Shown here one piece after another: positions 1 to 40,469 of a stretch of 64,000 bases of DNA (position 1 is the first letter of the stretch; each line of letters opens with the position of its first letter). The stretch spans positions 19,191,205 through 19,255,204 of the forward strand of contig CP092874.1 of NCBI GenBank assembly GCA_030710605.1. Direction: 5' to 3'. Position numbers and translations under genes: made by a program. The notes beneath the pieces were generated by a model. The model was not told the DNA's origin. It did not search any database and worked only from the letters and a program-made list of their open reading frames with translations. This DNA is from Cordylochernes scorpioides (Eukaryota; Arthropoda; Arachnida; Pseudoscorpiones; Chernetidae).

Positions 1-320
1 TACCGGATATTCTATCTTCCCTTTCCTCATACTCCAACAAAGGCTAGTTTATTTATATATTTCCAAATATTATTACATATGAAAAAACAAAAAATAAAAT
101 AAAATAAGTGGGTCAGGTGTTGATATTGTAACCAAGCATTTATTATTTTATTATTTTTATTAACAGAGTGGTCATTTTCATGCTTATATTTTGCTACTCT
201 GTAAATTCCCCTCGTGACTTATCTTTTGTTTACTTTTCATAGTTTGTCCTTGCCAAAAAATAATTTTGTTTCCTCCTGAAGTTTTTGTCTTCCCTAATTT
301 TCCACGTGGCAATATTAAAA

Positions 321-410
321 ATAAAGAAAGCATATCTCCTGACCAGGAGCATATGGCGCTCTGCCTTCTTTAAAGCACATGTGCTCCTGGTCAGGATATG
401 CTTTCTTTAT
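321..410. repeat. Hairpin MITE (family 'cctgaccaggagc')
   Basis: Arms of about 28 bases (321-350 and 383-410) pair around a short loop. The same terminus occurs at 35832-35919 (mirror copy), 44061-44230 and, as a half copy, near 45042. No coding capacity. Confidence 0.75.
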
Positions 411-689
411 TATGACATAAATATTAATTTACATATATAAGATTTTCATATTCTTCAAACTCTCTTCTCAAATTTATTCCCTAAGATCCACCACAGTCAA
501 CATTTCATCCTCTCGGCCATAGTTTGTCAGACATCCTGGAACTGTCTTTACTCTCTGGAAGAATCACAGATCACCCAGGGTTTAGCTTCTCTGTAGATAC
601 AGCATGTAAACGGCTTCTTGGATTAGTTAACTTTGATCCAGTGTCGATGGTTTGTTTCTAAGACTCAGTTTGGAACTTCCTGGTCAACT

Positions 690-996
690 TTTTTTTTTTT
701 GCTTATCCCTAGTACACGTGGTACAGGCCATGATAATCATACTGGCTAGTTAGCGACTGCTTTTACTGTAAACGCACCACATGTCTACACATGTGAAAAG
801 CAGTTCGACTTTGCACTTACAAATGTGCCAGAGCCCCGTTTGGTTACTTGCACTCGCTGGTGGGGTTGGACTTTTGCAAGAATCGGGGGCCATTGGAGCA
901 TTTTTTTTTAAACAGAAAAAAGTGTCCAATGAGGGAATCGAACCCGGGTCGTAGTGGTCGAAAACCAAACGGTTTAACCAGCCTTCCACCGACCCC
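690..996 (-). mobile_element. tRNA-derived SINE with a 10-bp target duplication
   Basis: On the minus strand it begins with a tRNA-like head (A-box-like segment, then a perfect B box 'ggttcgattcc'). A conserved body of about 200 bases follows, ending in 'ctagggataagc' and an A tail (T run at 690-700). The sequence 'ctggtcaact' flanks it at 680-689 and 997-1006, which is the target-site duplication expected of LINE-mobilised insertion. Mirror copy at 35241-35552. Confidence 0.88.
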
Positions 997-1420
997 CTGG
1001 TCAACTGATTTAACTCTGTCACATGCCGTGACTGCAGGTTGCTGGATACAGTCTGAGCGCTTCAGGAACACGGGTTATCTTTCTAATTTTCATTTTCTCT
1101 CTTGTTTATTAAAATTTTCGTATTCCTTAGACCCTACATTTTCACTTTAAAAAATTAAATATAATTTTAAAAATATAAAAAAAAAGAAACAGATTGTTAT
1201 CTCATCATAAATCTAACATGCTAAATCTTACAAAAGTCATCAAATAACTTTGATTTTCTCTCTTCCTGAGTTATATCTCTCTTTTGACCTTTCTGTTCTC
1301 CAGGAACCTGTTCTGTACAATTCCCTACAACACCTTGTAACTCCAGACCGTTCTATTACATTCTATAACCAATCCTTCACCTCTCCCTTTCATTTATTCT
1401 ACATGATGTTAGGTATAAAT

Positions 1421-1730
1421 TAACACAAAGCAATAGCGCGCCATCTATACATATAAAATGAAAGGATTTAAAAGCACGCATGTTTCTTTTATACATAATA
1501 CAAACTTCTACTGTCCTTACTGCGATGAAAACATATATTGGGAGGGCTTGGCTCATCAGTGGTGAACCCTCCCTGGTGGATTAAATTGGAGAAACCGCTG
1601 GGAGGGTTCACCACTGATGAGCCAAGCCCTCCCAATATATTTTTCCATCGCAGTAAGGACAGTAGAAATTTGTATTGTGTATAAAAGAAACATTCGTGCT
1701 GTTCTATCCTTTCATTTTATATATCTACAT
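1421..1730. mobile_element. Foldback element, family A
   Basis: Two facing arms share 'ctactgtccttactgcgat', 'gagggcttggctcatcag' and 'gtggtgaaccctccc', separated by a short centre with a 'gcgaaaccgct'-type segment. The outer part carries 'aagcaatagcgcgcc' and 'atgaaaggatttaaaagc'. This is the most abundant repeat family in the window. No ORF. Mirror copy at about 34500-34818. Confidence 0.75.
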
Positions 1731-1887
1731 GATGTATCACTATGGTCAAAATACAATCGTTTTTATATTCAGAGTACATTAGTTGTTTTAGAAATACTGG
1801 TTTCAAAGAAAACGGATCAACAAAGTATTGAGAAAAAAATGGACGCTTTAGAGAGTAATCTTTAAGAGGGTCTCTTTAGAGAGGTTT

Positions 1888-2250
1888 AACTATTATAACG
1901 CGCCATCTATATATATAAGGAATACAGATATTTAGCACGAATTTCTATTTTATATATAGAAAAAACTTTTTCAACTGTTCATACTGTGATGAAAAATAAT
2001 TGGAGGGCTTGGCTCATCAGTAGGGAACCCTCCAAGCGGTTTCGCCAATTCAATCTACCAGACCGCTTTTAAGAATTAATACTGTTATCAAAATTCGAAA
2101 CTATTTTAAAGGCGTAAGATTCTTTTTGAAATTAAACAAATTCTACAGCCCTTACTGCAATGGAAAAATTAATAGGAGGGCCTGGCTCATCAGTGGTGAA
2201 CCCTCCCAGCGGTTTCGCCAGTTTAATCTACCATACCGCTGCTATATTGC
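1888..2250. mobile_element. Two half copies of family A foldbacks
   Basis: 1888-2075 and 2080-2250 each contain only the left half (a 'tactgygatggaaaa'-like segment, 'ggctcatcag', 'aaccctcc', 'gcggtttcgcca') without the facing half. Such half copies recur at 9450-9540 and 42180-42260. Mirror copies at about 33985-34345. Confidence 0.6.
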
Positions 2251-2452
2251 ATTTTTTTGAACTGTATTGAACGATTATGCTTATATATGGTACACTGAAA
2301 TATGGGATCTTGGTTATGGTGTTTTAGCAAACTATGGATAATAGGATATTAGAATTGTATATAATGTCTTAGGTTTAACTCTATTTTCCTCATACTTCAG
2401 TTATCTATCTTGTCTGCAAGGGACCATCAGACAGCGCGGTAAGTATTTATAT

Positions 2453-3545
2453 TGAAGCGATGCAGAAAAGTAGAAGAGAAGAAGTGGGAAAGCCAAGGGA
2501 GGCAAGGCACGCCCGCGCGAGCACGCGCGCGCGAGAATAGAACGAAAAACAGTTTGGAACGGCTTCGGTGGAAAGATGGCGTCGGAACGGGGACTCGCTA
2601 TCGTGGTGTGACGCATTCCATTTCAGGAAGTGGGATCCGGGACTGTGTGGATTAACAAGCGGAGGACGAGGAGAAACCTACCTGGGGCGGCATTGAAGGC
2701 AAGTGTTTATCTCCCCTGTATAGTTCTTAATATCCCTTTTGAAGTTGCTGTGATAATAAATCTATAGCACTAAGCTGTATCCTAAACGAACTCACATTGT
2801 TTTCTCGGAGGCCTTGCACGCAAACATCGACGGCTGAGAAGACAATGTGAGTTCGTTTAGGATACAGCTTAGTGCTATAGATTTATTATCACAGCAACTT
2901 TAAAAGGGATATTAAGAACTATACAGGGGAGATAAACACTTGCCTTCAATGCCGCCCCAGGTAGGTTTCTCCTCGTCCTCCGCTTGTTAATCCACACAGT
3001 CCCGGATCCCACTTCCTGAAATGGAATGCGTCACACCACGATAGCGAGTCCCCGTTCCGACGCCATCTTTCCACCGAAGCCGTTCCAAACTGTTTTTCGT
3101 TCTATTCTCGCGCGCGCGTGCTCGCGCGGGCGTGCCTTGCCTCCCTTGGCTTTCCCACTTCTTCTCTTCTACTTTTCTGCATCGCTTCACTGCCCCCTTC
3201 TCAATCCTTTTCGTCCCGAAAAGGCTGATTTCACCAGAGGCGCTGATCGGCGGCCCTTTGATCTCCCTGACGTCTCTGGCCACATGAGGGTCGTCAGCCT
3301 TCCGGAAGCGTAACGGCAGGGTTAACACCAACCCTTGTTTGCAGAACCACATCTCAACTCGCGCTTTCTTTCCACGACGGGGCTGTAGATCGCCGATCTT
3401 TACAGTGGATTCGTCCACCTGATCCACGCTGTCCATTACAGGGCGGTGGTCCTCCACAAGATGGCGGCCATACCTCACTGCCCACGATGCTTCCATCTGA
3501 TATCTTGAATTCTCCTTGTGAGCACTCTGTAGCCGCAATGTACAA
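2453..3545. mobile_element. 1.1-kb insertion present only in the left arm, with internal palindrome
   Basis: Comparison with the right arm (empty site around 33497-33501) shows a clean insertion flanked by 'tatat' at 2448-2452 and 3546-3550. Inside, 2455-2796 and 2843-3189 are near-perfect inverted copies around a 46-bp loop. 3190-3545 is single copy. The insert is much more GC-rich than its surroundings and contains CpG-dense stretches and a YY1-like 'caagatggcggcc' near 3458. A 183-codon minus-strand ORF (2987-3538) spans the single-copy part and one palindrome arm. I recognise no protein family in it and would not call it a gene. The 5-bp duplication fits an LTR-type or cut-and-paste insertion. 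Confidence 0.75.
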
Positions 3546-3854
3546 TATATATAATTGGTATCTGAAATAATGATAATATTATTTGCATCAATGAGTTAAA
3601 TATAATTAAAATGAGATTCAACTGTATCCCAATGCTCCAAATGTAGAGAATATATTGACAAGAAACACAAGATCTTAGGTAGACTAGAAGTCTAAATAAC
3701 AAAAATAAAGATGCAGACAAGATATCCAGATGATTCAGAATAAGAACATATACACAATTCCAAAAATCATTCAATAATTCTAAAGACAATAAACCTACAG
3801 AACACTCCCCACACCTCTATAGCGGCGTATACTTCAGGAATTTATCAATACAGC

Positions 3855-4212
3855 CCAATACACCAATTATAATTGAGTTAAATAAATTCAAAATATTTGC
3901 AGAGTTACTTTATTAATATATAGGGAGGCAAGCTTTCACGTGGTCGCGCTTCATCAGGCCACTGGCTCCGCAAAGGCATGCAACATACATATAATAGAGA
4001 TTCACAGAAATACATTTGAATATATATATATTTGATTTTTTAAATGTATTTCTGTGAATCTCTATTATATGTGTGTAGTACGCCTTTGCGGAGCCAGTGG
4101 CCTGATGAAGCGCGACTGCGTGAAAGCTTGTCTCCCAATATCTTAATGAAGTAACTCTGCAAATATTTTAAATTTTATTTAACTCTCAATTATAATTGGG
4201 GTATTGGGCTGT
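3855..4212. mobile_element. Inverted pair of Penelope-like termini (family 'cctgatgaagcgcg')
   Basis: Two facing copies of one terminus. The left, on the minus strand, lies at about 3921-3965 and the right, on the plus strand, at about 4090-4140. Each contains 'cctgatgaagcgcga' then 'gtgaaagcttg', a hammerhead-like order (CUGAUGA, stem, GAAA, short palindromic AGCU). An extra A lies between the core and any stem, so activity is doubtful. Mirror copy at 32928-33203. Confidence 0.55.
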
Positions 4213-4390
4213 GTTGAGAAATTACTGAAGTATTCGCCGTTATAGAGGTGGGTGTTCTGTAGGTTATTGTCTTTATAATTATTGAATGGTTTTTGGAATT
4301 GTGTATATGTTCTTATTCTGGATCTCTTGTCTACATCTTTATTTTTGTTATTTAGACTTCTAGTCTACCTAAGATCTACTTCTTGTGTTA

Positions 4391-4615
4391 CCCAGAACAG
4401 CAGCTTTACACACACAAGATAGAGAACATTGCTGTGATAGAGATGTATGGAGACATCGGAGGCTCTTCATTGGACACGACAACAACAACAGACAATTGAC
4501 ATGGACCCAGAACAGCAGCTTTACACACCCAAGATAGAGAACGAATGCTGTGATAGAGATGTATGGAGACATCGGAGGCTCTTCATTGGACATGACAACA
4601 ATAATAACAACTTCT
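4391..4615 (+). repeat. Two units of the 116-bp LINE-tail repeat
   Basis: Contains 'agaacagcagctttacacac' followed by 'gatagagatgtatggagac', twice. This is the unit that forms the long array at 62095-64000. The right arm (about 32627-32750) has a single unit, so copy number differs between the arms. Confidence 0.8.
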
Positions 4616-4710
4616 TGTGTCTCTTGTCAATGTATTCTTTACATTTGGAGCATTGTGATACAGTTGAGTCACGCATGAGAGACTATAGCTTATAAATATT
4701 TTTATTTATC

Positions 4711-4945
4711 TCTTGTACACATGGTACAGGCCATGATAATCATGGTAGGTAGTAATTGGCGATTGCTTTTACTGTAAATGCATTTCATGTCTACATATGT
4801 TGAAAGCTGTTCGACTCTTCAGCTTGAAAATGTGCCAGGGCGATGTTTAGTTACTTTTCTCATTAGTGGGATTGGACGTTTTTCAAGAATCGGGGGGCTA
4901 TTATAGCAATATTTATACAGAATAGAAAAGAAATTTAGCTCAATC
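4711..4945 (-). mobile_element. Diverged SINE body
   Basis: Diverged match to the SINE body ('acatggtacaggccatgata', 'ttttactgtaaatgca', 'tcaagaatcgggg'). The tRNA-like head is not recognisable here. Counterpart at about 32290-32535. Confidence 0.65.
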
Positions 4946-5234
4946 AAAGACTGAGCCAGGGACGATATAGGCGTAACAGCCCTTACGTCCCCTGTCGGTC
5001 ATACAGCCAAAAAAGGGAATGATGCATTCTCCATTCTGCATTTCTGCATTCTCAACTGGCGAAACCGCTGGGATGGTTCACCACTGTTGAGCTAGGCCAT
5101 TGTTTGGCCCCTCGCGCCCGCCATTATGGTCTGGCTCCATTGGGTCGACCAATCACCCACAGGCGTCTCCGAGAGTTAATGGCAAGATTGCTGACCGAGC
5201 CCTCTCGTTCGGACTTAGTTGAACCATATATGCC

Positions 5235-5340
5235 AATATGCAATATTTTTACAGAAAAAAAAAAGTACCCAATGCGGGATTCGATCCTAGGTCGTTACTG
5301 TCGGAATTCGACGGTTTATATTCACTCGTTCACCGACTCC
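5235..5340 (-). mobile_element. SINE head fragment
   Basis: The reverse complement has an A-box-like 'tgaacgagtgaata' and a B box 'ggatcgaatccc', then the start of the SINE body ('gcattgggtactttttt'). The rest of the body is missing. Counterpart at about 31895-31995. Confidence 0.6.
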
Positions 5341-5597
5341 CGCCTAAAAACATGGATAAATTAGGTCTCTTCTGGAGGTGGTCGCTCATCAGAGGCTCTG
5401 TCTGGTCAACCGAAACTACCTTCAGAGTAACCGCTTCAACCAATAATGTATTCCCCTGTGGAGAATGAGTCACTGAAACGAAGAGACTTAATAAATAATT
5501 TTTTGATGTGGCTATATTTTTTCCAAACCAACTTCCAATCAACAAATGATTTTCAAAACGTAACGTTCAAGACTACCTTCAGGAGAGACCATGGTCT

Positions 5598-5640
5598 CTC
5601 ATGAGAGGTTCTATTGTAATGGACTATAGTTAGGATCTTC
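5598..5640. repeat. pogo-like terminal sequence
   Basis: 'ctctcatgagaggttctatt' read from the other strand resembles the CAnTAGAACC-type ends of pogo/Tigger elements. Related ends occur near 7370, 9087, 9612 and 26429. No full element can be delimited here. Confidence 0.4.
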
Positions 5641-5735
5641 TTGCCTTGAGTAAATGCCAAAATACGCCGTATCAATATGCCACGAAAATGCATTACGGCA
5701 AGATGTCTTCCACTTACCAAAAAATTAAGACTTCC

Positions 5736-5802
5736 AAGATTCTCCAGCCGGGAATCTTCTCATATATAGTCACAGATGTGTTAACCATTGCGCCATACAT
5801 AC
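5736..5802 (-). pseudogene. tRNA-Arg-like fragment
   Basis: The reverse complement reads 'tggcgcaatggttaac', 'tctgtgacta' and 'gagaagattcc', which follow the D arm, anticodon stem and variable region of an arthropod tRNA-Arg. The T arm and 3' acceptor are degraded, so this is a SINE head or tRNA pseudogene. Better preserved mirror copy at 31436-31500. Confidence 0.5.
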
Positions 5803-6000
5803 TACATTTTGATTTGCATAGCTATACTAGTAAATTTTGCATATGTTCCTTTGTATGCGATATGTAAAATATGCGCGCCGTTGTCTACAAGAAGTAAACA
5901 ATGATTATTCAGAGAGATAAACAATGAGTAGACAAGAAATTCATGGCAACGTATTGTACCATGATTTATACTTTCAAACGTAGTATTCAAATAGAAGTAA

Positions 6001-6026
6001 CAGGGAGGGGGGGGGGAGGGGAGAGT
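6001..6026. repeat. G-run low-complexity tract
   Basis: Nearly pure G tract inside otherwise AT-rich DNA, mirrored as a C run at about 31211-31233. Both sit at the same place in the arms and differ in length. Confidence 0.8.
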
Positions 6027-6460
6027 TCAGAAGGAATTTTTCTTTCTGTTATGAGGCGGAGCCATTTACGAGGAGTCGTTTAACATATTAATTCAAAATT
6101 TAAAATATGTAAATAGGATACGATTTGAATACAGCTACCTCTCTTTGTTAATAGGGAATTACTGGAAAGCTATAATTAGCTTCAATTCTCAATAGTCTCA
6201 ATTAACGAACGTTTATTTTTATCCAAATTGGCATCATTAGGAGATGTAAATACATACTTGTTAATTGGCATTGCTAATAATAACTTCATTTCACTTTCCC
6301 AGGTGGTTTTAATTAAGGATAATTGAGTGGGTTTTAATGATGAAAATCGAGATGTCGTTAAAATTCTTATTTCTTTATCGAATAAAATGAATTTTCCTTT
6401 GTTCTATCGTCTGCTTCTGAAGGGAATTTTGATCTTCAGAAGGAGGATGGAATAAACGTC
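6027..6460. other. Single-copy AT-rich stretch, no gene seen
   Basis: I see no ORF or known repeat. It is conserved between arms (counterpart about 30778-31210). Confidence 0.6.
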
Positions 6461-6461
6461 A

Positions 6462-7134
6462 ATTTGAAGCAAGGTTTGTAATCAACAATGAATTACTTGG
6501 AAAATTGAGTCCCTCTCAATTCTCTTCTTCGGTTATGGCTACTTACATACTACACTTGAAAGTATAAAACATGATAGCTGCTCTTTCACTGTATCATATC
6601 TGGACATTTTTTTTACCTACTTTTCTCTACTCTTGAAGCAAGGTTTGTAATCAATAATGAATTACTTGGAAAATTGAGTCGCTCTCAATTCTCTTCTTCG
6701 GTTATGTCTATTTACATACTACACTTGAAAGTATAAAACATGATAGATGCTCTTTCACTGTATCATATCTAGACTTTTTTTTACCTACTTATCTCTACTC
6801 TTGAAGCAAGGTTTGTAATCAACAATGAATTACTTGGAAAATTGAGTCCCTCTGAATTCTCTTCTTCGGTTATGTCTATTTACATACTACACTTGAAAGT
6901 ATAAAACATGATAGCTGCTCTTTCACTGTATCATATCTGGGCTTTGTTTACCTACTTTTCTCTACTCTTGAAGCAAGGTTTGTAATCAACAATGAATTAC
7001 TTGGAAAATTGAGTCCCTCTCAATTCTCTTCTTCGGTTATGTCTATTTACATACTACACTTGAAAGTATAAACCAGGATACATGCTCTTTCACTGTATCA
7101 TATTTGGAATTTTTAAAAAACCTTTTAACCTATT
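6462..7134. repeat. Tandem repeat, ~168-bp unit, ~4 copies
   Basis: Units begin 'gaagcaaggtttgtaatcaa' near 6464, 6637, 6803 and 6969. They contain 'gaattacttggaaaattgag' and 'ctttcactgtatcatat'. The right arm has about three more units (29590-30777). That explains the 505-base jump in the sum of paired coordinates across this point. Confidence 0.9.
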
Positions 7135-7386
7135 TGTCTCTACTCTTGGTACAAATTAAAATATGAAACAGATTAATACGGTAGAGATTTCCCAAAGAAA
7201 CTTCCTATAAAATGACTAAATTTTTTCTCTTCTGGAGATGGTATCTTATTGGAGACTGTCATGTCACGCTATGAGAGAAGTCTTTCAACTGGAAGAGTGT
7301 CTATTGAGAAACTACCTCCAGGAAAGCCCGGATTTATCTGTGATTTTAAGTCATGGTCTCTCATGGAAAACTCTATTGTATATGTA

Positions 7387-7620
7387 GCGCCATCTGTTAT
7401 CAAATTATAAAACTATTTTAGAGGCGTAATATTCTTTTTAAAATAAAACAATTTCTACTGTCCTTACTGCGATGGAAAAATTAAAGGGAGGGCCTGGCTC
7501 ATCAGTGGTGAACCCTCCCAGTGGTAGATTAAACTGGCGAAACCGCTGGGAGGGTTCACCACTGATGAGCCAGGCCCTCCCATTAATTTTTCCATCGCAG
7601 TAAGGACAGTAGAAATTGTT
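7387..7620. mobile_element. Foldback element, family B, complete
   Basis: Nearly perfect hairpin. 'ctactgtccttactgcgatg' through 'ggtgaaccctccca' is followed by its reverse complement after a short centre, ending at 'acagtagaaattg' near 7616. The left flank has 'gcgccatctgttatc'. Mirror copy at 29100-29347. Confidence 0.8.
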
Positions 7621-7639
7621 CTTTTGTATATGTACAATT

Positions 7640-8222
7640 ACAATTATTTTATTTCCAAAGCGCTATATCCCGCAAGGGATACTTGCGCCAAACAAGGAGA
7701 AAAGTTTATTTACATTATTCAACGCATGAAAACATTAGATATCCAGATTTTGTAGAAAGTTTAGAATGTATTTACAAAATGATTTGAACTTTAAATATGA
7801 TTTTTTTTATCGGAAATCAAATCGTTAAGTTCACAAACAACTAGTTCATTCTATAATCTTGAAATGCTGGGCAATCGATCAGTAGATGTCTTGAGGTTTG
7901 TTCCTCAATACCACAAAAGTTACTTGAATCCGCACTGCCTTTATTCTATTTTAAAAACTTTTGAAATTTCCGTGGTTTGTAACAAATTGAGTATTATAAA
8001 AATTTGGACGAAAGTATTTAGAAATTTTTGGGTAAAAAAGCTTAAGAAAGTATTATTTGCTTCGTTTTTCAGAATATTCATTCTTGATTTGAGAAAGGTA
8101 TCTATAATTCCTGGAATAAATGGGTCATAAATTTGTTGATCATCTGGGGATAAGTTTCTCAGATCAGATATCATGATTCTGGATTCGATAAAGTCTGAGA
8201 TCAGAGGAATGTTGGCCAAACT
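7640..8222 (-). pseudogene. 5'-truncated LINE tail
   Basis: On the minus strand a degenerate reverse-transcriptase C-terminus reads 'GIEEQTSRHLLIDCPAF' (the H-x4-C end of the C-terminal zinc-knuckle-like motif of many non-LTR elements). A 3' UTR follows, containing 'ggcgcaagtatcccttgcgg' and an 'aaataaaataatt' tail. A related 3' UTR piece lies near 61418. Mirror copy at 28490-29085. Confidence 0.6.
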
Positions 8223-8295
8223 ATGAACACAGCTATATGATGTGGATTTATAGGCTTGTATACACCATGTTAGTATTTGATAATGGGTTGAATTT

Positions 8296-8603
8296 TTTTT
8301 TTTTTTGCTTATCCCTAGTACACGTGGTACAGGCCATGATAATCATGGTGGGTAGTTAGCGACTGCTTTTACTGTAAGTGCACCACATGTCTACACATGT
8401 GAAAAGCAGTTCGACTTTGCACTTACTAATGCCAGAGCCCCGTTTGGTTACTTGCACTCGCTGGTGGGGTTGGACTTTTGCAAGAATCGGGGGCCATTGG
8501 AGCATTTTTTTCTTTAAACAGAAAAAAGTGTCTAATGCGGGAATCGAACCCGGGTCCTAGTGGTCGAAAACCAAACGGTTTAACCAGCCTTCCACCGACC
8601 CCC
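8296..8603 (-). mobile_element. tRNA-derived SINE with a 12-bp target duplication
   Basis: Full-length SINE on the minus strand with a perfect B box, the conserved body and an A tail. 'tgggttgaattt' flanks it at 8284-8295 and 8604-8615. Mirror copy at 28127-28432 with the same duplication, so this insertion predates separation of the two arms. Confidence 0.9.
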
Positions 8604-8684
8604 TGGGTTGAATTTAATTTTTTGTAAACATTTTTTAAATTAAATGTCGAATTTATTATTGTCTTATTAGCAATTAAGAAAGTT

Positions 8685-8745
8685 TTTGTGGCGTGGCACA
8701 ACGGATTCCATGTTCGAATCCCAGCAGAGTTGTATTTTATCCTCA
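8685..8745 (+). pseudogene. tRNA-like fragment with B box
   Basis: 'ggcacaacggattcc' then 'gttcgaatcccagcag' resembles a D/anticodon region and an intact T arm with Pol III B box. No paired acceptor stem is seen. Counterpart near 28005-28065. Confidence 0.4.
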
Positions 8746-8810
8746 TAATATTTGTAGAGCTATCTCTTGCAACACATGTCTGTGATAAACAACAGCGTTG
8801 GTCCTATCAG

Positions 8811-9080
8811 GTCGGTGGGCGAGTGGTATAAAAAGTCGACAGCCACGACCGAATCTCGCATTGGGAAGTTTTTCTCAATAAAAAAATTGCTTCAAAGGCT
8901 CCCGATTCTTGCAAAAGTTCAACCTCACCAGTAAGTGCAAACTACCAAACGGGACTCTGGCATATTTGTATTTACAAAAGTGGAACGATTTGTAGACATG
9001 TCGTGTACTTACAATAAAAACAGTTGCCAGCTACCATGATTATCATGGCCTGTATCACGTATACTAGGGACAATAAACAA
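8811..9080 (+). mobile_element. SINE, diverged subfamily
   Basis: Plus-strand copy with A box 'tgggcgagtgg' and a decayed B box, followed by the SINE body (a 'gattcttgcaaaagttcaac'-type segment and 'gattatcatggcctgta'). Mirror copy at about 27645-27920. Confidence 0.75.
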
Positions 9081-9615
9081 CAATACAGTAGAACCTATAA
9101 AATGAAATGATTTAAAAGCACGAATGTTTCTTGTATACATAATACAAACTTCTACTGCCCTTACTGCGATGAAAATATATATATGTTTATATGTATATAT
9201 ATTTATATGTATAGATGGCGCGTTATTGCTTTGTGTTAATTTATGCCTAACTGGCCTTGTCTTTATTGTTTGCGGAAGAGCATTGCTCGATGCAAATATT
9301 TGAATGTAATTCTACTGTCCTATAAGCTTATGTCCATAGATTCCTTGAAAACCATTTCTGAGATTCCATCCTTCAGTGCTGCGTATATAAGCAGAATCGT
9401 CCAATACAGTATTAGAGCTCTGAGAAGCGGTCTGGTGGATTAAATTGGCGAAACCGCTGGGAGGGTTCACCACTGATGAGCCAAGCCCTCCCAATATATT
9501 TTTTCATCGCAGTAAGGGCAGTAGAAGTTTGTATTGTGTATAAAAGAAACATTCGTGCTTTTAAATCCTTTCATTTTATATGTATAGATGGCGCGTTATT
9601 GCTTTGTGTTAACAG
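9080..9615. mobile_element. Compound family A foldback with longer interior
   Basis: Outer segments 'agcacgaatgtttctt' and 'atagatggcgcgttattgct' appear in both orientations. The interior carries 'aagcttatgtccatag' and 'gtattagagctctgagaagc', not present in the short hairpins; the same interior is seen near 45360-45540, 54920-54990 and 61130-61200. It looks like a less deleted form of family A. No ORF. Counterpart 27120-27630. Confidence 0.65.
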
Positions 9616-9864
9616 TAGAACCTACCTTGTAAAGGACAACACTCTAATTACAGAGCCAAATTGTCCTTAGGGGAGAGATGTCCTCTTACTGGAGAATTGC
9701 TATTTTTTATACAACAACAGCTTTATTAGGACATTTACGCCCTGTAAGGACTCGCCATATATCATTTTCATGGAGAAAAGGAAAAAAGAATATTTTTTAT
9801 ATATTAAAACTCTAACATATTATATTTATAGAATTTATTATAAATTTGTTTAACATTTAGTAAA

Positions 9865-9975
9865 TGATGAAAAAGGGCATTTCCTTATCGTTCAACTGAA
9901 AGTTAATGATGGTTTGAGCCATCTATCTTTCAGTTGCACGCTAAAGAGAAGCCTTTTTCTTCATTTACTTTACCT
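9865..9975. repeat. Hairpin repeat 'caactgaaagt'
   Basis: 'ttatcgttcaactgaaagtt' faces 'ctttcagttgcacgctaaag' around a 'gatggtttgagccatc' centre. The longest member of this family is the palindrome at 39412-39614. Counterpart 26755-26880. Confidence 0.65.
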
Positions 9976-10001
9976 TATCCCAGTACAATTTCACATTTGT
10001 A

Positions 10002-10677: not shown

Positions 10678-10679
10678 TA

Positions 10680-18400: not shown

Positions 18401-18431
18401 TATATATATATATAGGTTTTGCAATTTTTAT

Positions 18432-22269: not shown

Positions 22270-22282
22270 TTTATATATATAA
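22270..22282 (+). promoter_or_regulatory. Possible TATA element of the right zinc-finger copy
   Basis: 'tttatatatataaaa' about 115 bases upstream of the ATG, at the same place as in the left copy. Weak, because such tracts are common here. Confidence 0.25.
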
Positions 22283-22394
22283 AAAAAAATTCATTGACTT
22301 ATAAATCTGTTTCAAATGTTTTACTTTTTGTTTTTTGAATTAAGTTTGACCATTTTAGTTCTTTTCTGAGATAGTAAGCAATTTTAAATCAATA

Positions 22395-25434: not shown

Positions 25435-25775
25435 GTTTCTGTATTGTCACAAGTCTCATGAAGAGTATTTAAACATAATTTCTGTATTGTCACAAGTCTC
25501 ATGAAGAATATTTAAACATAATTTCTGTATTGTCAAGTCTCATGAAGAGTATTTAAACATAATTTCTGTATTGTCACAAGTCTCATGAAGAATATTTAAA
25601 CATAATTTCTGTATTGTCACAAGTCTCATGAAGAGTATTTAAACATAATTTCTGTATTGTCACAAGTCTCATGAAGAATATTTAAACATAATTTCTGTAT
25701 TGTCAAGTCTCATGAAGAATATTTAAACATAATTTCTGTATTGTCAAGTCTCATGAAGAGTATTTTTAAATTAGA
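25435..25775. repeat. 43-bp satellite array, ~8 copies
   Basis: Mirror of 11329-12833 with far fewer units. Some units lack three bases ('attgtcaagtctcatg'), a variant not seen in the left array. Confidence 0.92.
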
Positions 25776-26428
25776 GTTTCTGATGAGTGACCAATTTCAG
25801 GAACGACTTTGTTTAGCTATTAAAAGTCTGAAAAATCTCCCCTAAAATCCACTCCTACAGCCTCATCGTGACAGGAGACGGTATGTCCTGGTGTGCTATA
25901 CATCCGGAAGGTACAAGTTGTCCGCGGCTATAACTGTACTCCAGGTTAGGATCAGTGGCCCAAAGTCACACTGAGTGGAACTTATAGACCTACAGCAACC
26001 TCCTTTCCCACTCTATTAAGGTTTTTCTCTGTAGAAATAAGGAACACACAAAGTCTACAAAATAAATTTCCAATGATTAATTTTGATTTTACATTTAAAA
26101 GGTTAACTCTTTCGAGTCTTTTTCAAAAATATAAAGTTTTCAAGTTCATTTTATAGACTCTTTTAATAGATTCGTCACTCTTCCAACTCTAATTTTATTT
26201 AATATATAAATCCTCTTTATCAATAGTATAAGGTGAAAAAACCATATTTCCATGGATATATAAGCTTCTTTTTAATATCAAAGATAATACAATAGTTTTA
26301 ACAGAAGACTGGACTTTACGGAATTGTTTTTTTTTTTTTTAATTTGATAATTCGCACTCTCTAGTAAGGTTGGACTTATGCAAGATTCAGGAGGCATCAA
26401 GGCAGTTTGTTTAATAAGGTACCTATTA

Positions 26429-26727
26429 CAGTAGAACCTCCCTTAGCGGACACTCTCGCTAGAGGACCCCTCCAAACAACGGACAGTTTTACCACCAAAA
26501 TTGTCTTCCCATTGAAAATACGTTCACAGACACCTCCAAACAACGGACACTTTCCCAAAATATTATTTATTGATTTAATATATAATAGACACACCTTCCA
26601 CCTAGCACACAATTGAGAAAATAAAAGTTGAACAACTAATATATCATTTTTAAATAAATTTAATTTTCAATGTTTAATGGTATTTTCAAAATTAATTTAC
26701 TATAACCATTTACTAAGTGAAAAATAG
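26429..26727 (+). mobile_element. pogo-like element end with different interior
   Basis: Begins CAGTAGAACCTCCCTTAGCG after TA, identical to the right end of 10002-10677 up to 'cactctcgctag'. It then departs ('aggacccctccaaacaacgg', with 'acctccaaacaacggacac' repeated). No transposase fragment. The swap of interiors between arms suggests exchange with another family member or different internal deletions. Confidence 0.5.
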
Positions 26728-27119
26728 TACAAATGTGAAATTGTACTGGAATAAGGTAAAGTAAATGAAGAAAAAAAGACATTTCCTTTTCGTGCAACTG
26801 AAAGATAGATGGCGCAAACCATCATTAATTTTCAGTTGAACGATAAGGAAATGCCCTTTTTCGTCATTTACTAAATGTTAAACAAATTTATAATAAATTC
26901 TATAAATATAATATGTTAGAGTTTCAACATATAAAAAATATTATTTTTTCCTTTTCTCCATGAAAATGATGTATGGCGAGTCCTTACATGGCGGAAATGT
27001 CCTAATAAAGCTGTTGTTGTATAAAAAATAGCAACTCTCCAGTAAGAGGACATCTCTCCCCTAAGGACAATTTGGCTCTGTAACTAGAGTGTTGTCCTTT
27101 ACAAGGTAGGTTCTACTGT

Positions 27120-27630
27120 TAACACAAAGCAATAACGCGCCATCTATACATATAAAATGAAATGATTTAAAAGCACGAATGTTTCTTGTATACATAATAC
27201 AAACTTCTACTGCCCTTACTGCGATGAAAAAATGTATTGGGAGGGCTTGGCTCATCAGTGGTGAACCCTCCCAGCGGTTTCGCCAATTTAATCCACCAGA
27301 CCGCTTCTCAGAGCTCTAATACTGTATTGGACGATTCTGCTTATATACGCAGCACTGAAGGATTGAATCTCAGAAATGGTTTTCAAGGAATATATGGACA
27401 TAAGCTTATAGGACAGTAGAATTACATTCAAATATTTGCATCGAGCAATGCTCTTCCGCAAACAATAAAGACAAGGCCAGTTAGGCATAAATTAACACAA
27501 AGCAATAACGCGCCATCTATACATATAAATATATAAACATATATATTTATTCATCGCAGTAAGGGCAGTAGAAGTTTGTATTATGTGTATACAAGAAACA
27601 TTCGTGCTTTTAAATCATTTCATTTTATAG
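27120..27630. mobile_element. Compound family A foldback (right arm)
   Basis: Mirror of 9080-9615 with the same interior ('aagcttatgtccatag' region, inverted). Confidence 0.65.
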
Positions 27631-27644
27631 GTTCTACTGTATTG

Positions 27645-27920
27645 TTTTTATTGTCCCTAGTATACGTGATACAGGCCATGATAATCATGGTAGCTGGCAA
27701 CTATTTTTATTGTAAGTACACGACATGTCTACAAATCGTTCCACTTTTGTAAATACAAATATGCCAGAGTTCCGTTTGGTGGCTTGCACTTACTGGTGGA
27801 GTTGAACTTTTGCAAGAATCGGGAGCTATTGAAGCAATTTTTTATTGAGAAAAACTTCCCAATGCAGGATTCGATCGTTGGTCGAGGCTATCGACAGTTT
27901 ATATCACTCGTTTACCGACC
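27645..27920 (-). mobile_element. SINE, diverged subfamily (right arm)
   Basis: Mirror of 8811-9080, with the body and the decayed tRNA head on the minus strand. Confidence 0.75.
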
Positions 27921-28126
27921 TGATAGGACCAACGCTGTTGTTTATCACAAACATGTCTTACAAGAGATTGCTCTACAAATATTATGAGGATAAAATACGA
28001 CCCTGCTGGGATTCGAACATGGAATCCGTTGTGCCACACCCAAAAACTTTCTTAAAATTGCTAATAAGACAATAATAAATTCTACATTTAAATAAAAAAA
28101 TGTTTACAAAAATTAAATTCAACCCA

Positions 28127-28432
28127 GGGGGTCGGTGGAAGGCTGGTTAAACCGTTTGGTTTTCGACCACTAGGACCCGGGTTCGATTCCCGCATTAGAC
28201 ACTTTTTTCTGTTTAAAGAAAAAAATGCTCCAATGGCCCCCGATTCTTGCAAAAGTCCAACCCCACCAGCGAGTGCAAGTAACCAAACGGGGCTCTGGCA
28301 TTAGTAAGTGCAAAGTCGAACTGCTTTTCACATGTGTAGACATGTGGTGCACTTACAGTAAAAGCAGTCGCTAACTACCCACCATGATTATCATGGCCTG
28401 TACCACGTGTACTAGGGATAAGCAAAAAAAAA
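28127..28432 (+). mobile_element. tRNA-derived SINE with target duplication (right arm)
   Basis: Plus-strand full copy: GGGGTCGGTGG head, B box 'ggttcgattcc', body and A tail. 'aaattcaaccca' flanks it at 28115-28126 and 28433-28444. Mirror of 8296-8603. Confidence 0.9.
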
Positions 28433-28489
28433 AAATTCAACCCATTATCAAATACTAACATGGTGTATACAAGCCTATAAATCCACATC

Positions 28490-29085
28490 ATATAGCTGTG
28501 TTCATAGTTTGGCCAACATTCCTCTGATCTCAGACTTTATCGAATCCAGAATCATGATATCTGTGATCTGAGAAACTTATCCACAGATGATCAACAAATT
28601 TATGACCCATTTATTCCAGGAATTATAGATACCTTTCTCATATCAAGAATGAATATTCTGAAAAAACGAATCAAATAATACTTTCTTAAGCTTTTTTCCC
28701 CAAGAAATCCCTAAATACTTTCGTCCAAATTTTTATAATACTCAATTTGTTACAAACCACGGAAATTTCAAAAGTTTTTAAAATAGAATAAAGGCAGTGC
28801 GGATTCAAGTTACTTTTGTGGTATTGAGGAACAAACCTCAAGACATCTACTGATCTATTGCCCAGCATTTCAAGATTATAGAATGAACTAGTTGTTTGTG
28901 AACTTAACGATTTGATTTCCGATAAAAAAAATCATATTTAAAGTTCAATTCATTTTGTAAATACATTCTAAACTTTCTACAAAATCTGGATCTCTAATGT
29001 TTTCATGCGTTGAATAATGTAAATAAACTTTTCTCCTTGTTTGGCGCAAGTATCTCTTGCGGGATATAGCGCTTTGGAAATAAAA
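28490..29085 (+). pseudogene. 5'-truncated LINE tail (right arm)
   Basis: Mirror of 7640-8222. The reading 'ISDFIESRIMISDL' near the start and the 'tattgaggaacaaacctcaa' zinc-knuckle region are broken by stops. The 3' UTR with 'gcgcaagtatctcttgcggg' is intact. Confidence 0.55.
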
Positions 29086-29099
29086 TAATTGTAATTGTA

Positions 29100-29347
29100 C
29101 ATATACAATAGAACAATTTCTACTGTCCTTACTGCGATGGAAAAATTAAAGGGTGGGCCTGGCTCATCAGTGGTGAACCCTCCCAGCGGTTTCGCCAGTT
29201 TAATCTACCACTGGGAGGGTTCACCACTGATGAGCCAGGCCCTCCCTTTAATTTTTCCATCGCAGTAAGGACAGTAGAAATTGTTTTATTTTAAAAAGAA
29301 TATTACGCCTCTAAAATAGTTTTATAATTTGATAACAGATGGCGCTC
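29100..29347. mobile_element. Foldback element, family B (right arm)
   Basis: Hairpin mirror of 7387-7620, with 'ggcctggctcatcagtggtg' and its reverse complement around 'gtttaatctacca'. Confidence 0.8.
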
Positions 29348-29589
29348 TAGTACATCATATACAATAGATTCTCCCATGAGAGACCATGACTTAAAATCAC
29401 AGATAAACCCGGGCTTTCCTGGAGGTAGTTTCTCAATAGACACTCTTCTAGTTGAAAAACCGCTCTCATGGTTTGACCTGACAGTCTACAATAAGAGACC
29501 ATCTCCAGAAGAGAACAAATTTAACCATTTTATAGAAAGTTTCTTTGGGAAATCTCTACCGTATTAATCTGCTTCATAGTTTAATTTGT

Positions 29590-30777
29590 ACCAAGAGTAG
29601 AGACAAATAGGTAAAAAGGTTTTTTAAAAAATTCCAAATATGGTGCAGTGAAAGAGCATGTATCATGTTTTATACTTTCAAGTGTAGTATGTAAATAGAC
29701 ATAACCGAAGAAGAGAATTCAGAGGGACTCAATTTTCCAAGTAATTAATTGTTGATTACAAACCTTGCTTCAAGAGTAGAGAAAAGTAAGTAAAAAAAGT
29801 CTAGATATGATACAGTGAAAGAGCATCTATCATGTTTTATACTTTCAAGTGTAGTATGTAAATAGACATAACCGAAGAAGAGAATTCAGAGGGACTCAAT
29901 TTTCCAAGTAATTCATTGTTGATTACAAACCTTGCTTCAAGAGTAGAGAAAAGTAAGTAAAAAAGTCTAGATATGACACAGTGAAAGAGCAGCTATCATG
30001 TTTTATACTTTCAAGTGTTGTATGTAAATAGACATAACTGAAGAAGAGAATTGAGAGGGACTCAATTTTTCAAGTAATTCATTGTTGATTACAAACCTTG
30101 CTTCAAGAGTAGAGATAAGTAGGTAAAAAAAATGTCCAGATATGATACAGTGAAAGAGCATCTATCATGTTTTATACTTTCAAGTGTAGTATGTAAATAG
30201 ACATAACCGAAGAAGAGAATTGAGAGGGACTCAATTTTCCAAGTAATTCATTGTTGATTACAAACCTTGCTTCAAGAGTAGAGAAAAGTAGGTTAAAAAA
30301 AGCCCAGATATGATACAGTGAAAGAGCATCTATCATGTTTTATACTTTCAAGTGTAGTATGTAAGTAGCCATAACCGAAAAAGAGAATTCAGAGGGACTC
30401 AATTTTCCAAGTAATTCATTGTTGATTACAAACCTTGCTTCAAGAGTAGAGATAAGTAGGTAAAAAAAATTCAGATATGATACAGTGAAAGAGCATCTAT
30501 CATGTTTTATACTTTCAAGGGTAGTATGTAAATAGACATAACCGAAGAAGAGAATTGAAAGGGACTCAATTTTCCAAGTAATTCATTATTGATTACAAAC
30601 CTTGCTTCAAGAGTAGAGAAAAGTAAGTAAAAATGTCCAGATATGATACAGTGAAAGAGCAGCTATCATGTTTTATACTTTCAAGTGTAGTATGAAAGTA
30701 GCCATAACCGAAGAAGAGAATTCAGAAGGACTCAATTTTCCAAGTAATTCAATTTTGATTACAAACCTTGCTTCAAA
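29590..30777. repeat. Tandem repeat, ~168-bp unit, ~7 copies
   Basis: Reverse-complement counterpart of 6462-7134. Unit starts ('accttgcttcaagagtagag') fall near 29762, 29929, 30095, 30262, 30430 and 30598. Three units more than the left arm. Confidence 0.9.
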
Positions 30778-31435
30778 TTGACGTTTATTCCATCCTCCTT
30801 CTGAAGATCAAAATTCCCTTCAGAAGCAGACGATAGAACAAAGGAAAATTCATTTTATTCGATAAAGAAATAAGAATTTTAACGACCGTCTCGATTTTCA
30901 TCATTAAAACCCACTCAATTATCCTTAATTAAAACCACCTGGGAAAGTGAAATGAAGTTATTATTAGCAATGCCAATTAACAAGTATGTATTTACATCTC
31001 CTAATGATGCCAATTTGGATAAAAATAAACGTTCGTTAATTGAGACTATTGAGAATTGAAGCTAATTATAGCTTTCCAGTAATTCCCTATTAACAAAGAG
31101 GTAGCTGTATTCAAATCGTATCCTATTTACATATTTTAAATTTTGAATTAATATGTTAAACGACTCCTCGTAAATGGCTCCGCCTCATAACAGAAAGAAA
31201 AATTCCTTCTGAACTCTCCCCCCCCCCCCTCCCGGCTACTTCTATTTAAATACTACGTTTGAAAGTATAAATCATGGTACAATACGTTGCCATGAATTTC
31301 TTGTCTACTCATTGTTTATCTCTCTGAATAATCATTGTTTACTTCTTGTAGACAACGGCGTGCATATTTTACATATCGCATACAAAGAAACATATGCAAA
31401 TTTTACTAGTATATCTATGCAAATCAAAATGTAGT

Positions 31436-31500
31436 ATGTATGGCGCAATGGTTAACACATCTGTGACTATATATGAGAAGATTCCAGGCTGGAGAATCTT
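31436..31500 (+). pseudogene. tRNA-Arg-like fragment (right arm)
   Basis: 'tggcgcaatggttaacac', 'tctgtgacta' and 'gagaagattccagg' follow a tRNA-Arg from D arm to T-arm start. The B box is not intact. Confidence 0.5.
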
Positions 31501-31894
31501 GGAAGTCTTAATTTTTTGGTAAGTGGAAGACATCTTGCCGTAATACATTTTCGTGGCATATTGATACGGCGTATTTTTGCCATTTAGTCATGACAAGAAG
31601 ATCCTAACTATAGTCCATTACAATAGAACCTCTCATGAGAGACCATGGTCTCTCCTGAAGGTAGTCTTGAACGTTACGTTTTGAAGATCATTTGTTGGTT
31701 GTAAGTTGGTTTGGAAAAAATATAGCCACATCAAAAAAATGATTTATTTAATTCTTTTCGTTTCAGTGACTCATTCTCCACAGGAGAATACATTATTGGT
31801 TGAAGCAGTTACTCTGAAGGTAGTTTCGGTTGACCAGACAGAGCCTCTGATGAGCGACCACCTCCAGAAGTGACCTAACTTAGCCATGTTTTTA

Positions 31895-32535
31895 TGCGGG
31901 GATCGGTGAACGAGTGAATATAAATCTTCGAATTCCGACAGTAACGACCTAGGATCGAATCCCGCATTTGAGTTTTTTTTTTCTGTAAAAATATTGCATA
32001 TTGGCATATATGGTTTAACTAAGTCCGAACGAGAGGGCTCGGTCAGCAACCTTGCCATTAACTCTCGGAGACGCCTGTGGGTGATTGGTCGACCCCATGT
32101 AGCCAGACCATAATGGCGGGCGCGAGGGGCCAAACAATGGCCTAGCTCAACAATGGTGAACCCTCCCAGCGGTTTCGCCAGTTGAGAATGCAGAAATGCA
32201 GAATGGAGAATGCATCATTCCCTTTTTTGGCTGTGTGATCGACAGGGGATGCAAGGGCTTTTACGCCTATATCGTCCCCTGGCTCAGTCTTTGATATTAT
32301 TGAGCTAAATTTCTTTTCTATTCTGTATAAATATTGCTATAATAGCCCCCCGATTCTTGAAAAACGTCTAATCCCACTAATGAGAAAAGTAACTAAACAT
32401 CGCCCTGGCACATTTTCAAGCTGAAGAGTCGAACAGCTTTCAACATATGTAGACATGTGGTGTACTTACAGTAAAAGCAATCGCCAATTACTACCTACCA
32501 TGATTATCATGGCCTGTACCATGTGTACAAGAGAT
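31895..32535 (+). mobile_element. SINE head fragment and diverged SINE body (right arm)
   Basis: 31895-31995 has the tRNA-like head with B box 'ggatcgaatccc'. 32290-32535 has the SINE body. Between them lies a half foldback ('ctcccagcggtttcgccagt' at about 32162). Mirror of 4711-5340. Confidence 0.6.
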
Positions 32536-32626
32536 AAATAAAAATGTTTATAAGCTATGGTCTCTTATGAGAGACTCAATTGTATCACAATGCTCCAAAT
32601 GTAGAGAATACATTGACAAGAGACAC

Positions 32627-32750
32627 AAGAAGTTGTTATTATTGTTGTCATGTCCAATGAAGAGCCTCCGATGTCTCCATACATCTCTATCACAGCAATG
32701 TTCTCTATCTTTGGTGTGTAAAGCTGCTGTTCTGGGTTACACAAGAAGTA
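32627..32750 (-). repeat. Single unit of the 116-bp LINE-tail repeat
   Basis: Reverse complement of the unit at 4391-4615, one copy only. Confidence 0.75.
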
Positions 32751-32927
32751 GATCTTAGGTAGACTAGAAGTCAAAAAACAAAAAGAAAGATGTAGACAAG
32801 AGATCCAGATGATTCAGAATAAGAACATATACACAATTCCAAAAATCATTCAATAATTATAAAGACAATAACCTACAGAACACCGACCTCTATATAACGG
32901 CGAATACTTCAGTAATTTCTCAACACA

Positions 32928-33203
32928 GCCCAATACACCAATTATAATTGAGTTAAATAAAATTTAAAATATTTGCAGAGTTACTTTATTAATATATTGG
33001 GAGACAAGCTTTCACGCAGTCACGCTTCATCAGGCCACTGGCTCCTGTCAATCTCTATTATATGTATATTGCATGCCTTTGCGGAGCCAGTGGCCTGATG
33101 AAGCGCGACCGCGTGAAAGCTTGCCTCAATATATTAATGAAGTAACTCTGCAAATATTTTTAATTTTATTTAATTCAATTATAATTGGTGTATTGGGCTG
33201 TGT
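32928..33203. mobile_element. Inverted pair of Penelope-like termini (right arm)
   Basis: Mirror of 3855-4212 with a shorter centre. 'gcctgatgaagcgcgaccgc' and 'gtgaaagcttgcc' are intact on the plus-strand side (about 33085-33125). Confidence 0.55.
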
Positions 33204-33719
33204 TGAGAAATTCCTGAAAGTTTCGGTATAGAGGTGTGGGGGGTGTTCTGCGGTTTATAGTCTTTTAAATTATTGAATGATTTTTGGAATTGTGTATATG
33301 TTCTTATTCTGAATCATCTGGATCTCTTGTCTACATCTTTCTTTTTGTTATTTAGACTTCTAGTCTACCTTAGATCTTGTGTTTCTTGTCAATGTAGTCT
33401 CTACATTTGGAGCATTGGGATACAGTTGAATCTCATTTTAATTATATTTAACTCATTGATGCAAATAATATTATCATTATTTCAGATACCAATTATATAT
33501 AAATACCTACCGCCCTGTCGGATGGTCCCTTGTAGACGATGCAGAGATAACTGAAGTATGAGGAAAAATAGAGTTAAATCTAAGACATTATATACAATTC
33601 TAATATCCTAATGTCCATAGTTTGCTAAAACACCATAACCAAGATCCCATATTTCAGTGTACCATATATAAGCATATTCGTTCAATACAGTTCAAAAAAA
33701 TGCAATATAGCAGCGGTAT

Positions 33720-33971
33720 ATTGATTATACCATATATTAATATAATTACATTTCTCCTATTGCCTGTTTTGTATATCATACATAAAACTTAAATTTTATC
33801 TCTCTAAAAATAATAGTTTTTTGGTTATGCTAATCACCTGTATATATATAGATGTATCTTGATTCTTTGTGTAGTTTTATTCCTGTTGAAGGGCGACTTT
33901 GTGCTCGAAAGCTCGAACGCTTGTTCATAAAAAGATACTCATCCTCTTTGTCTTTGAATGTTTTCTTTACC
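33720..33971 (+). mobile_element. Right-arm-only insertion with 13-bp target duplication and hammerhead-like motif
   Basis: The left arm has an uninterrupted site ('ctaccataccgctgctat' near 2236). In the right arm 'atagcagcggtat' occurs at 33707-33719 and again at 33972-33984, enclosing 252 bases. The insert contains 'ctgttgaagggcgactttg' then 'gctcgaaagctcgaac', the same layout as the motifs near 40190, 42430 and 54325. Size and duplication fit a 5'-truncated Penelope-like retroelement. No ORF. Confidence 0.7.
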
Positions 33972-33984
33972 ATAGCAGCGGTAT

Positions 33985-34818
33985 GGTAGATTAAACTGGC
34001 GAAACCGCTGGGAGGGTTCACCACTGTTGAGCTAGGCCCTCCCATTAATTTTTCCATTGCAGTAAGGGCTGTAGAGAATTTGTTTAATTTCAAAAAGAAT
34101 CTTACGCCTTTAAAATAGTTTCGAATTTTGATAACAGTATTAATTCTTAAAAGCGGTCTGGTAGATTAAACTGGCGAAACCGCTTGGAGGGTTCACTACC
34201 GATGAGCCAAGCCCTCCAATTATTTTTCATCACAGTAAAAACAGTTGAAAAAGTTTTTTTTTTCAATTTATAAGAATAAAAATTCGTGCTAAATATCTGT
34301 ATTCCTTATATATAGATGGCGCGTTATAATAGTTAAACCTCTCTAAAGAGACCCTCTTAAAGATTACTCTCTAAAGCGTCCATTTTTTTTCTCAATACTT
34401 TGTTGATCCGTTTTCTTTGAAAAACCAGTATTTCTAAAACAACTAATGTACTCTGAAGATCAAAAAAAGAGATTGTATTTTGACCATAGTGATACATCAT
34501 GTAGATATATAAAATGAAAGGATTTAAAAGCACGAATGTTTCTTTTATACATAATACAAACTTCTACTGTCCTTACTGCGATGGAAAAATATATTGGGAG
34601 GGATTGGCTCATCAGTGGTGAACCCTCCCAGCGGTTTCGCCAATTTAATCTACCAGGGAGGGTTCACCACTGATGAGCCAAGCCCTCCCAATATATGTTT
34701 TCATCGCAGTAAGGACAGTAGAAGTTTGTATTATGTATAAAAGAAACATTCGTGCTTTTAAATCCTTTCATTTTATATGTATAGATGGCGCGTTATTGCT
34801 TTGTGTTAATTTATACCT
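33985..34818. mobile_element. Family A foldbacks (right arm)
   Basis: Two half copies (33985-34150, 34150-34345) and a complete hairpin (34500-34818). The hairpin centre 'taatctaccagggaggg' differs from the left-arm centre by a small deletion. Confidence 0.7.
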
Positions 34819-35240
34819 AACATCATGTAGAATAAATGAAAGGGAGAGGTGAAGGATTGGTTATAGAATGTAATAGAACGGTCTGGAGTTACAAGGTGTT
34901 GTAGGGAATTGTACAGAACAGGTTCCTGAAGAACAGAAAAGTCAGAAAGAGAGATATAACTCAAGAAGAGAGAAAATCAAAGTTAGAAGATGACTTTTTG
35001 TAAGGGTTAGCATATTAGATTTATGATGAGATGACAATCTGTGTCTTTTTTATAATTTATATATATTTTTAAATTATATTAATTTTTTTAAGTGAAAATA
35101 TAGGGTCCTATGAATATGAAAATTTGTATAAACAAGAGATAAAATGAAAATTAGATAGATAACCCGTGTTCCTGGAGCGCCCATACTGTATACAGCAACC
35201 TGCAGTCACGGCATGTGACAGAGTTAAATCAGTTGACCAG

Positions 35241-35552
35241 GGGGTCGGTGGAAGGCTGGTTAAACCGTTTGGTTTTCGACCACTACGACCCGGGTTCGAT
35301 TCCCTCATTGGACACTTTTTTTCTGTTTAAAAAAAAATGCTCCAATGGCCCCCGATTCTTGCAAAAGTACAACCCCACTAGCGAGTGCAAGTAACCAAAC
35401 GGGGCTCTGGCACATTTGTAAGTGCAAAGTCGAACTGTTTTTCACATATGTAGACATGTGGTGCGTTTACAGTAAAAGCAGTCGCTAACTACCCAACATG
35501 ATTATCATGGCCTGTATCACGTGTACTAAGGATAAGGCAAAAAAAAAAAAAA
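35241..35552 (+). mobile_element. tRNA-derived SINE (right arm)
   Basis: Mirror of 690-996. 'agttgaccag' flanks it at 35231-35240 and 35553-35562. Confidence 0.88.
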
Positions 35553-35831
35553 AGTTGACCAGGAAGTTCCAAACTGAGTCTTAGAAACAAACCATCGACA
35601 CTGGATCAAAGTTAACTAATCCAAGAAGCCGTTTACATGCTGTATCTACAGAGAAGCTAAACCCTGGGTTATCTGTGATTCTTCCAGAGAGTAAAGACAG
35701 TTCCAGGATGTCTGACAAACTATGGCCGAGAGGATGAAATGTTGACTGTGGTGGATCTTAGGGAATAAATTTGAGAAGAGAGTTTGAAGAATATGAAAAT
35801 CTTATATATGTAAATTAATATTTATGTCATA

Positions 35832-35919
35832 ATAAAGAAAGCATATCCTGACCAGGAGCACATGTGCTTTAAAGAAGGCAGAGCGCCATGTGCTCCTGGT
35901 CAGGATATGCTTTCTTTAT
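35832..35919. repeat. Hairpin MITE 'cctgaccaggagc' (right arm)
   Basis: Mirror of 321-410, with clean pairing of 'gcatatcctgaccaggagc' and its reverse complement. Confidence 0.75.
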
Positions 35920-36262
35920 TTTTAATATTGCCACGTGGAAAATTAGGGAAGACAAAAACTTCAGGAGGAAACAAAATTAATTTTTGGCAAGAACAAACTA
36001 TGAAAGGTAAACAAAAGATAAGTCACGAGGGGAATTTACAGAGTAACAAAATATAAGCATGAAAATGACCACTCTGTTAATAAAAATAATAAAATAATAA
36101 ATGCTTGGTTACAATATCAACACCTGACCCACTTATTTTATTTTTTATTGTTTTTTCATATGTAATAATAATTGGAAATATAGAAATAAACTAGCCTTTG
36201 TTGGAGTATGAGGAAAAGGAAGATAGAATATCCGGTACAAAACAATCTTCTTGGTCACCAGA

Positions 36263-40462: not shown

Positions 40463-40469
40463 TAGTATG

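Follow-up and report, generated by a model that had tools for sequence, protein, structure and literature searches.

An apparent giant palindrome in the Cordylochernes scorpioides assembly is probably a head-to-head scaffolding of two haplotypes from a single locus

Palindromes of mammalian Y chromosomes have large inverted arms that carry a gene pair, the arms of such palindromes are kept more than 99% identical by gene conversion, and palindrome centres are often assembly gaps. A stretch of 64,000 nucleotides from the pseudoscorpion Cordylochernes scorpioides (GCA_030710605.1, contig CP092874.1; C12:19191205-19255204, hereafter the window) resembles them in having large inverted arms and a pair of C2H2 zinc-finger genes, and the original prediction offered two readings of it, a Y-palindrome-like structure or two haplotypes of the same locus that scaffolding had set head to head. 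The arrangement of the contigs favours the second reading, and we regard the inverted repeat as a probable scaffolding artefact. Errors of this kind have been described. Excerpts of the Vertebrate Genomes Project report define heterotype false duplication as the placement of separate haplotype contigs of diverged regions in the primary assembly, where the smaller contig aligns to the larger and is mistaken for a gene or segmental duplication, as could happen here; the highest heterozygosity that these excerpts give among the project's genomes is 1.6% (PMC8081667). In the diamondback moth, a partial text of the study links allelic divergence to contig redundancy, and reports that scaffolding with 3D-DNA gave rise to numerous candidate misassemblies (PMC9526047). 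Those long-read insect assemblies would share with the present one a contig redundancy derived from alleles, but according to the same partial text they were built from pooled insects. Our case would belong to the retained-haplotig kind, with one peculiarity: both parallel contigs were cut a single time and their pieces interleaved, two of them flipped, which produces an inverted false copy. In this respect, and in a divergence of 3–4%, it differs from the vertebrate cases as excerpted (PMC8081667).

We searched the whole genome (2.62 Gb in 24 contigs, given with a capital C) and, more closely, 314 kb around the window, where six N runs (at least 10 N) define seven stretches, c0 to c6, the first and the last of them truncated at the limits of the region. 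In window-relative coordinates, c4 occupies 18717-60094 and c5 60195-96876, and c6 starts at 96977. The window itself is made up as follows, A and B denoting the two putative haplotypes.

1..18616, minus strand: the whole of contig c3, forming the left arm; putative haplotype-B piece, reversed relative to its continuation c6, which lies outside the window
18617..18716, no strand: N run, the 100-N scaffold gap at the dyad
18717..36237, plus strand: right arm, the first 17,521 of the 41,378 bases of c4 (putative haplotype A), counterpart of reversed c3
36238..60094, plus strand: remainder of c4 (putative haplotype A), counterpart of c6 1-19503 in direct orientation; chain identity 94.7%
60095..60194, no strand: N run, the 100-N scaffold gap between c4 and c5
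60195..64000, minus strand: start of c5 (putative haplotype-A piece, reversed, whose far end continues c4); identity of the inverted c5/c6 chain 93.8%

Self-BLAST and chaining paired window positions 1-18616 in inverted orientation with 36237-18717 at about 95.5% identity. The self-BLAST match ran from 1/36237 inward as far as 18431/18717, and its nine largest arm-to-arm pieces were 91–98% identical. The predicted giant inverted repeat, with arms of at least 17.5-18.4 kb, is therefore present in the scaffold. Its outermost bases, 1 and 36237, pair with each other, as had been proposed, and the mirrored order of elements holds across the whole of c3. Near-diagonal alignments of at least 100 columns covered 16,492 of the 18,616 bases of the left arm and 16,599 of the 17,521 bases of the right arm, far above chance expectation, while the chained pieces of c3 and c4 comprised 11,423 columns at 95.5% identity with 3.24% substitutions. 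A gap had been predicted exactly at the centre. The 100-N run is there, but the dyad is imperfect, because 185 bases of the left contig (18432-18616) extend beyond the point where the right one begins. This 185-base overhang is one of five arm-specific stretches of at least 60 bases in the left arm; the right arm has three.

At its outer end the mirror breaks off exactly at the first base of contig c3, and an N run immediately precedes base 1. It had been expected that the DNA to the left of the window would continue the mirror if the arms were longer, and that bases 36238 onward could be aligned there. No continuation was found in 50 kb of left flank, part of which is N; the longest of the best 60 matches had 408 columns, and the matches look like dispersed repeats. 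From base 36238 on, the sequence instead matched, in direct orientation, contig c6, whose start lies about 61 kb to the right. The highest-ranking chains of matches between contigs paired c4 17522-41374 in direct orientation with c6 1-19499, c5 inverted with c6 47783-19762 and c3 inverted with c4 17521-1557, besides c0 with c1 and c1 with c2.

At the first junction, c4 17272-17521 corresponds to c3 252-1 and c4 17522-17771 to c6 1-251, so that the boundary 17521|17522 in c4 separates reversed c3 base 1 from c6 base 1 with an offset of 0 bp. At the second, c6 19254-19499 corresponds to c4 41130-41374, ending 4 bases before the end of c4, and c6 19504-19753 corresponds to c5 36682-36451 reversed; the boundary 19503|19504 in c6 separates the last base of c4 from the last base of c5 reversed, again with an offset of 0 bp, and a 200-base alignment crosses it without a gap. 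Because both junctions have an offset of 0 bp, the best reading of c3 to c6 is a pair of parallel contigs, each cut once: A, consisting of c4 followed by reversed c5, and B, consisting of reversed c3 followed by c6. We judge the probability that four contig ends abut by chance in two exact pairs to be negligible, and two exact abutments tens of kilobases apart are not expected unless the pieces were formerly joined. Contig ends that face each other across the scaffold gaps match opposite copies of one place, and the joins present in the scaffold are therefore unsupported.

A true giant palindrome, with arms of 17.5-18.4 kb and a centre that failed to assemble, would account for the mirror order across all of c3, and gapless inverted pairs do occur elsewhere in this genome. 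It gives no reason, however, for the unbroken continuation from c4 to c6 or for the second exact junction, and it leaves the outer end of the mirror at a contig start whose position in c4 is also the exact start of c6. No continuous sequence passes through the centre. Neither arm has a boundary inside continuous sequence, since the left one ends at an N run, within which the arms would have to end given the lack of a mirror in the left flank, and the right one continues into homology with c6 base 1. The arms differ by 3.2% substitutions, and their identity of only about 95.5% lies well away from the value above 99% of mammalian Y palindromes, from which the locus also differs in lacking a continuous centre and in having an outer end that is a contig end continued by another piece. 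The arms belong to two parallel contigs, and a third piece continues the mirror in direct orientation. A chromosomal palindrome is very unlikely on this evidence, and the head-to-head palindrome is false whether A and B are alleles or paralogues.

Our preferred explanation, to which we assign a probability of roughly 0.86 from the sequence, is that the repeat represents two unpurged haplotypes of one locus lying head to head. The assembler would have built two parallel contigs, A and B, from one locus of a diverged diploid, and redundancy removal would have purged neither. Scaffolding, presumably with a proximity (Hi-C type) scaffolder, would then have cut A and B once each and interleaved the pieces as c3, c4, c5 and c6, with c3 and c5 flipped, which would have left c3 and its allele in c4 facing each other head to head. 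Comparison with the published description of heterotype false duplication is favourable: c3 stands as a contig of its own with N on either side (the run in front of base 1 and the 100 N after 18616), it aligns end to end with a larger contig apart from the 185-base overhang at the dyad, and the pieces of each putative haplotype continue in step with the other across both junctions.

Several features of the sequence lead us to infer that A and B are allelic and not paralogous, among them differences in repeat number within the zinc-finger gene pair of the arms and close to it.

13497..15239, minus strand: 580-aa open reading frame for a C2H2 zinc-finger protein (copy B), in which a 49-aa repeat occurs 5 times
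22395..24575, plus strand: 726-aa open reading frame for a C2H2 zinc-finger protein (copy A), in which the 49-aa repeat occurs 8 times
11336..12830, no strand: 43-bp minisatellite with 34.8 copies in copy B (copy A: 7.8 copies, 25436-25765)
33720..33971, no strand: segment found in copy A only, lying between direct repeats of 13 bases of which copy B has just one

Both frames contained zf-H2C2_5 above the cut-off. On the best reading, the diverged gene pair of the original prediction would be two alleles of one zinc-finger gene. The alternative is that A and B are real paralogues that arose when at least 65 kb were duplicated, segmentally or in tandem, and whose contigs were cut and misordered, the head-to-head layout still being false. 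Copy number in the genome bears on this question. A 2-kb arm segment had full-length copies at only two of its 53 genome matches, these being the two arms, and so a third copy that might point to paralogues was not found; the sole long partner of the segment at 44.2-46.2 kb among 93 matches was 970 bases of c6 at 95%. Zinc-finger genes do form large local arrays in this genome, as would suit paralogues; on C4, for example, dozens of partial copies of a 2-kb query lie in a region of roughly 1 Mb. Outside the pair, however, none of the matches listed for the zinc-finger gene (264 found) exceeded 48% identity. Two further queries, the two locally least-repeated segments of 2,000 bases, were uninformative as a two-copy test, each having at least 40 full-length matches, as young abundant repeats do.

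Divergence was alike in the three pairings of chained alignments (3.2, 3.7 and 4.2% substitutions), which counts for the haplotype reading. So do the differences of allelic type between the copies, both in repeat number (minisatellite copies of 34.8 vs 7.8, 5.0 vs 8.0 and 3.9 vs 6.9) and in insertions. The segment at 33720-33971 looks like an insertion with a target-site duplication; this was the one clear 13-base case among five arm-specific segments viewed, the others showing none by eye. The parallel tiling, gap for gap over about 65 kb, fits the retention of both haplotypes, as does the partial redundancy of the neighbouring stretches c0/c1 (92.4%) and c1/c2 (91.3%). For the next gene on c6, which carries a Group 7 allergen domain, another copy at 92% lies 43 kb further on, and the two-copy pattern therefore extends beyond c5.

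The coding sequences are less simple to interpret. Over 581 aligned codons, stop included, dN was 0.034 and dS 0.025, a slight excess of nonsynonymous change that might be expected of paralogues. The N-terminal 191 codons gave a dN of 0.023 and a dS of 0.032, and the C-terminal 141 codons a dN of 0.038 and a dS of 0.014, the latter pair of values resting on 13 nonsynonymous differences and 1 synonymous difference. In the diamondback moth, according to the partial text, duplicates on the same contig had a somewhat higher piN/piS than putative haplotigs, and dN above dS does not by itself favour alleles here (PMC9526047). It is conceivable, but improbable in our estimate, that balancing selection, low recombination or a hybrid origin has long held the two haplotypes separate, with a zinc-finger gene that has 5 vs 8 of the 49-aa repeats and that changes faster in its protein than at silent sites outside the fingers.

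Several observations weigh against two retained haplotypes. A divergence of 3–4% is high for two alleles, and the chains align only 15,155 of 23,857 bases between c4 and c6 and 14,800 of 36,682 between c5 and c6, large unaligned stretches of the sort that paralogues would also show, which arise in part because tandem arrays break the chain. Elsewhere in the genome, CRM1_C had five matches at two unlike loci, on C2 and more weakly on C12, with no near pair, and the matches of RPB2 include unpaired loci. A probably real inverted duplication also exists, at C4:51.092-51.112 Mb, where 6,867 columns align at 99.4% with no N run in 20 kb. Taken together with the copy-number results and the tiling, these points leave the duplication of a real paralogous segment as an unlikely alternative, and two haplotypes of one locus remain our preferred reading.

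Possible signs of the same error were found at another place. The PROCN domain of PRPF8, a gene that is to our knowledge single-copy in animals, had two matches in all, both on C8 (98335693 and 98429551) and equal in score, which lie on opposite strands at a distance of 94 kb. This pair is possibly a false duplication of the same kind, and redundancy looks patchy across the genome. Our reading of the window does away with a giant palindrome and a gene duplication that are both spurious, and with a PROCN domain that is also doubled, gene counts and structural claims that rest on this assembly need to be checked for the same error. The junctions offer a cheap test that needs no reads: where an arm contig abuts another contig at an offset of 0 bp on the opposite copy, parallel contigs have been cut.

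The zinc-finger pair on C4 was tried as a second example of the artefact and rejected on account of its gapless inverted alignment (6,867 columns at 99.4%). The inverted pair at C4:51092001-51112000 surrounds zinc-finger frames, a 2-kb query taken there found many copies of 80–99% identity over about 1 Mb, and a real inverted duplication is more plausible there than in the window. RPB2 (PF00562) had 45 matches, some clustered and some single, from which no simple copy count can be read. Six near-equal full-domain matches lie on C11:82.15-87.55 Mb, in frames of 549-1,179 aa with an intronless domain. Other clusters are located on C4, C19 and C21, and the total exceeds the need of three polymerases; retained haplotigs, retrocopies or foreign DNA may be among these matches.

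Smaller elements within the window include two self-complementary sequences. In c4, positions 51121-53109 form a near-perfect palindrome of 1,989 bp, 99.2% identical to its own reverse complement and 22.9% GC; it is absent from the counterpart in c6, where the matches of its flanks lie at most 58 bases apart, and it looks like a fold-back insertion in one copy only. A self-complementary stretch of 737 bp (97%) at 2453-3189 lies within a segment found only in the left arm (2453-3545). A 33-bp minisatellite at 58407-60014, at most 150 bases from the end of c4 and beside the second cut, keeps a frame of 535 aa open. The partial tRNA match at 39981-40036 (38.4 bits, model positions 8-63 of 71) is probably part of a repeat. 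Domain searches found mariner-type and other DDE transposase domains, which together with the Group 7 allergen domain and the C2H2 zinc-finger genes fit an arthropod genome, and a 335-aa open reading frame at 55911-56918, with Mos1-type HTH and Transposase_1 domains, encodes a mariner-like transposase. Frames at L022:2934-6941 resemble a copia-type retrotransposon (named by eye), and a 2-kb piece of this stretch, one of the two least-repeated queries above, had at least 40 full-length matches in the genome, with other copies at 99% identity.

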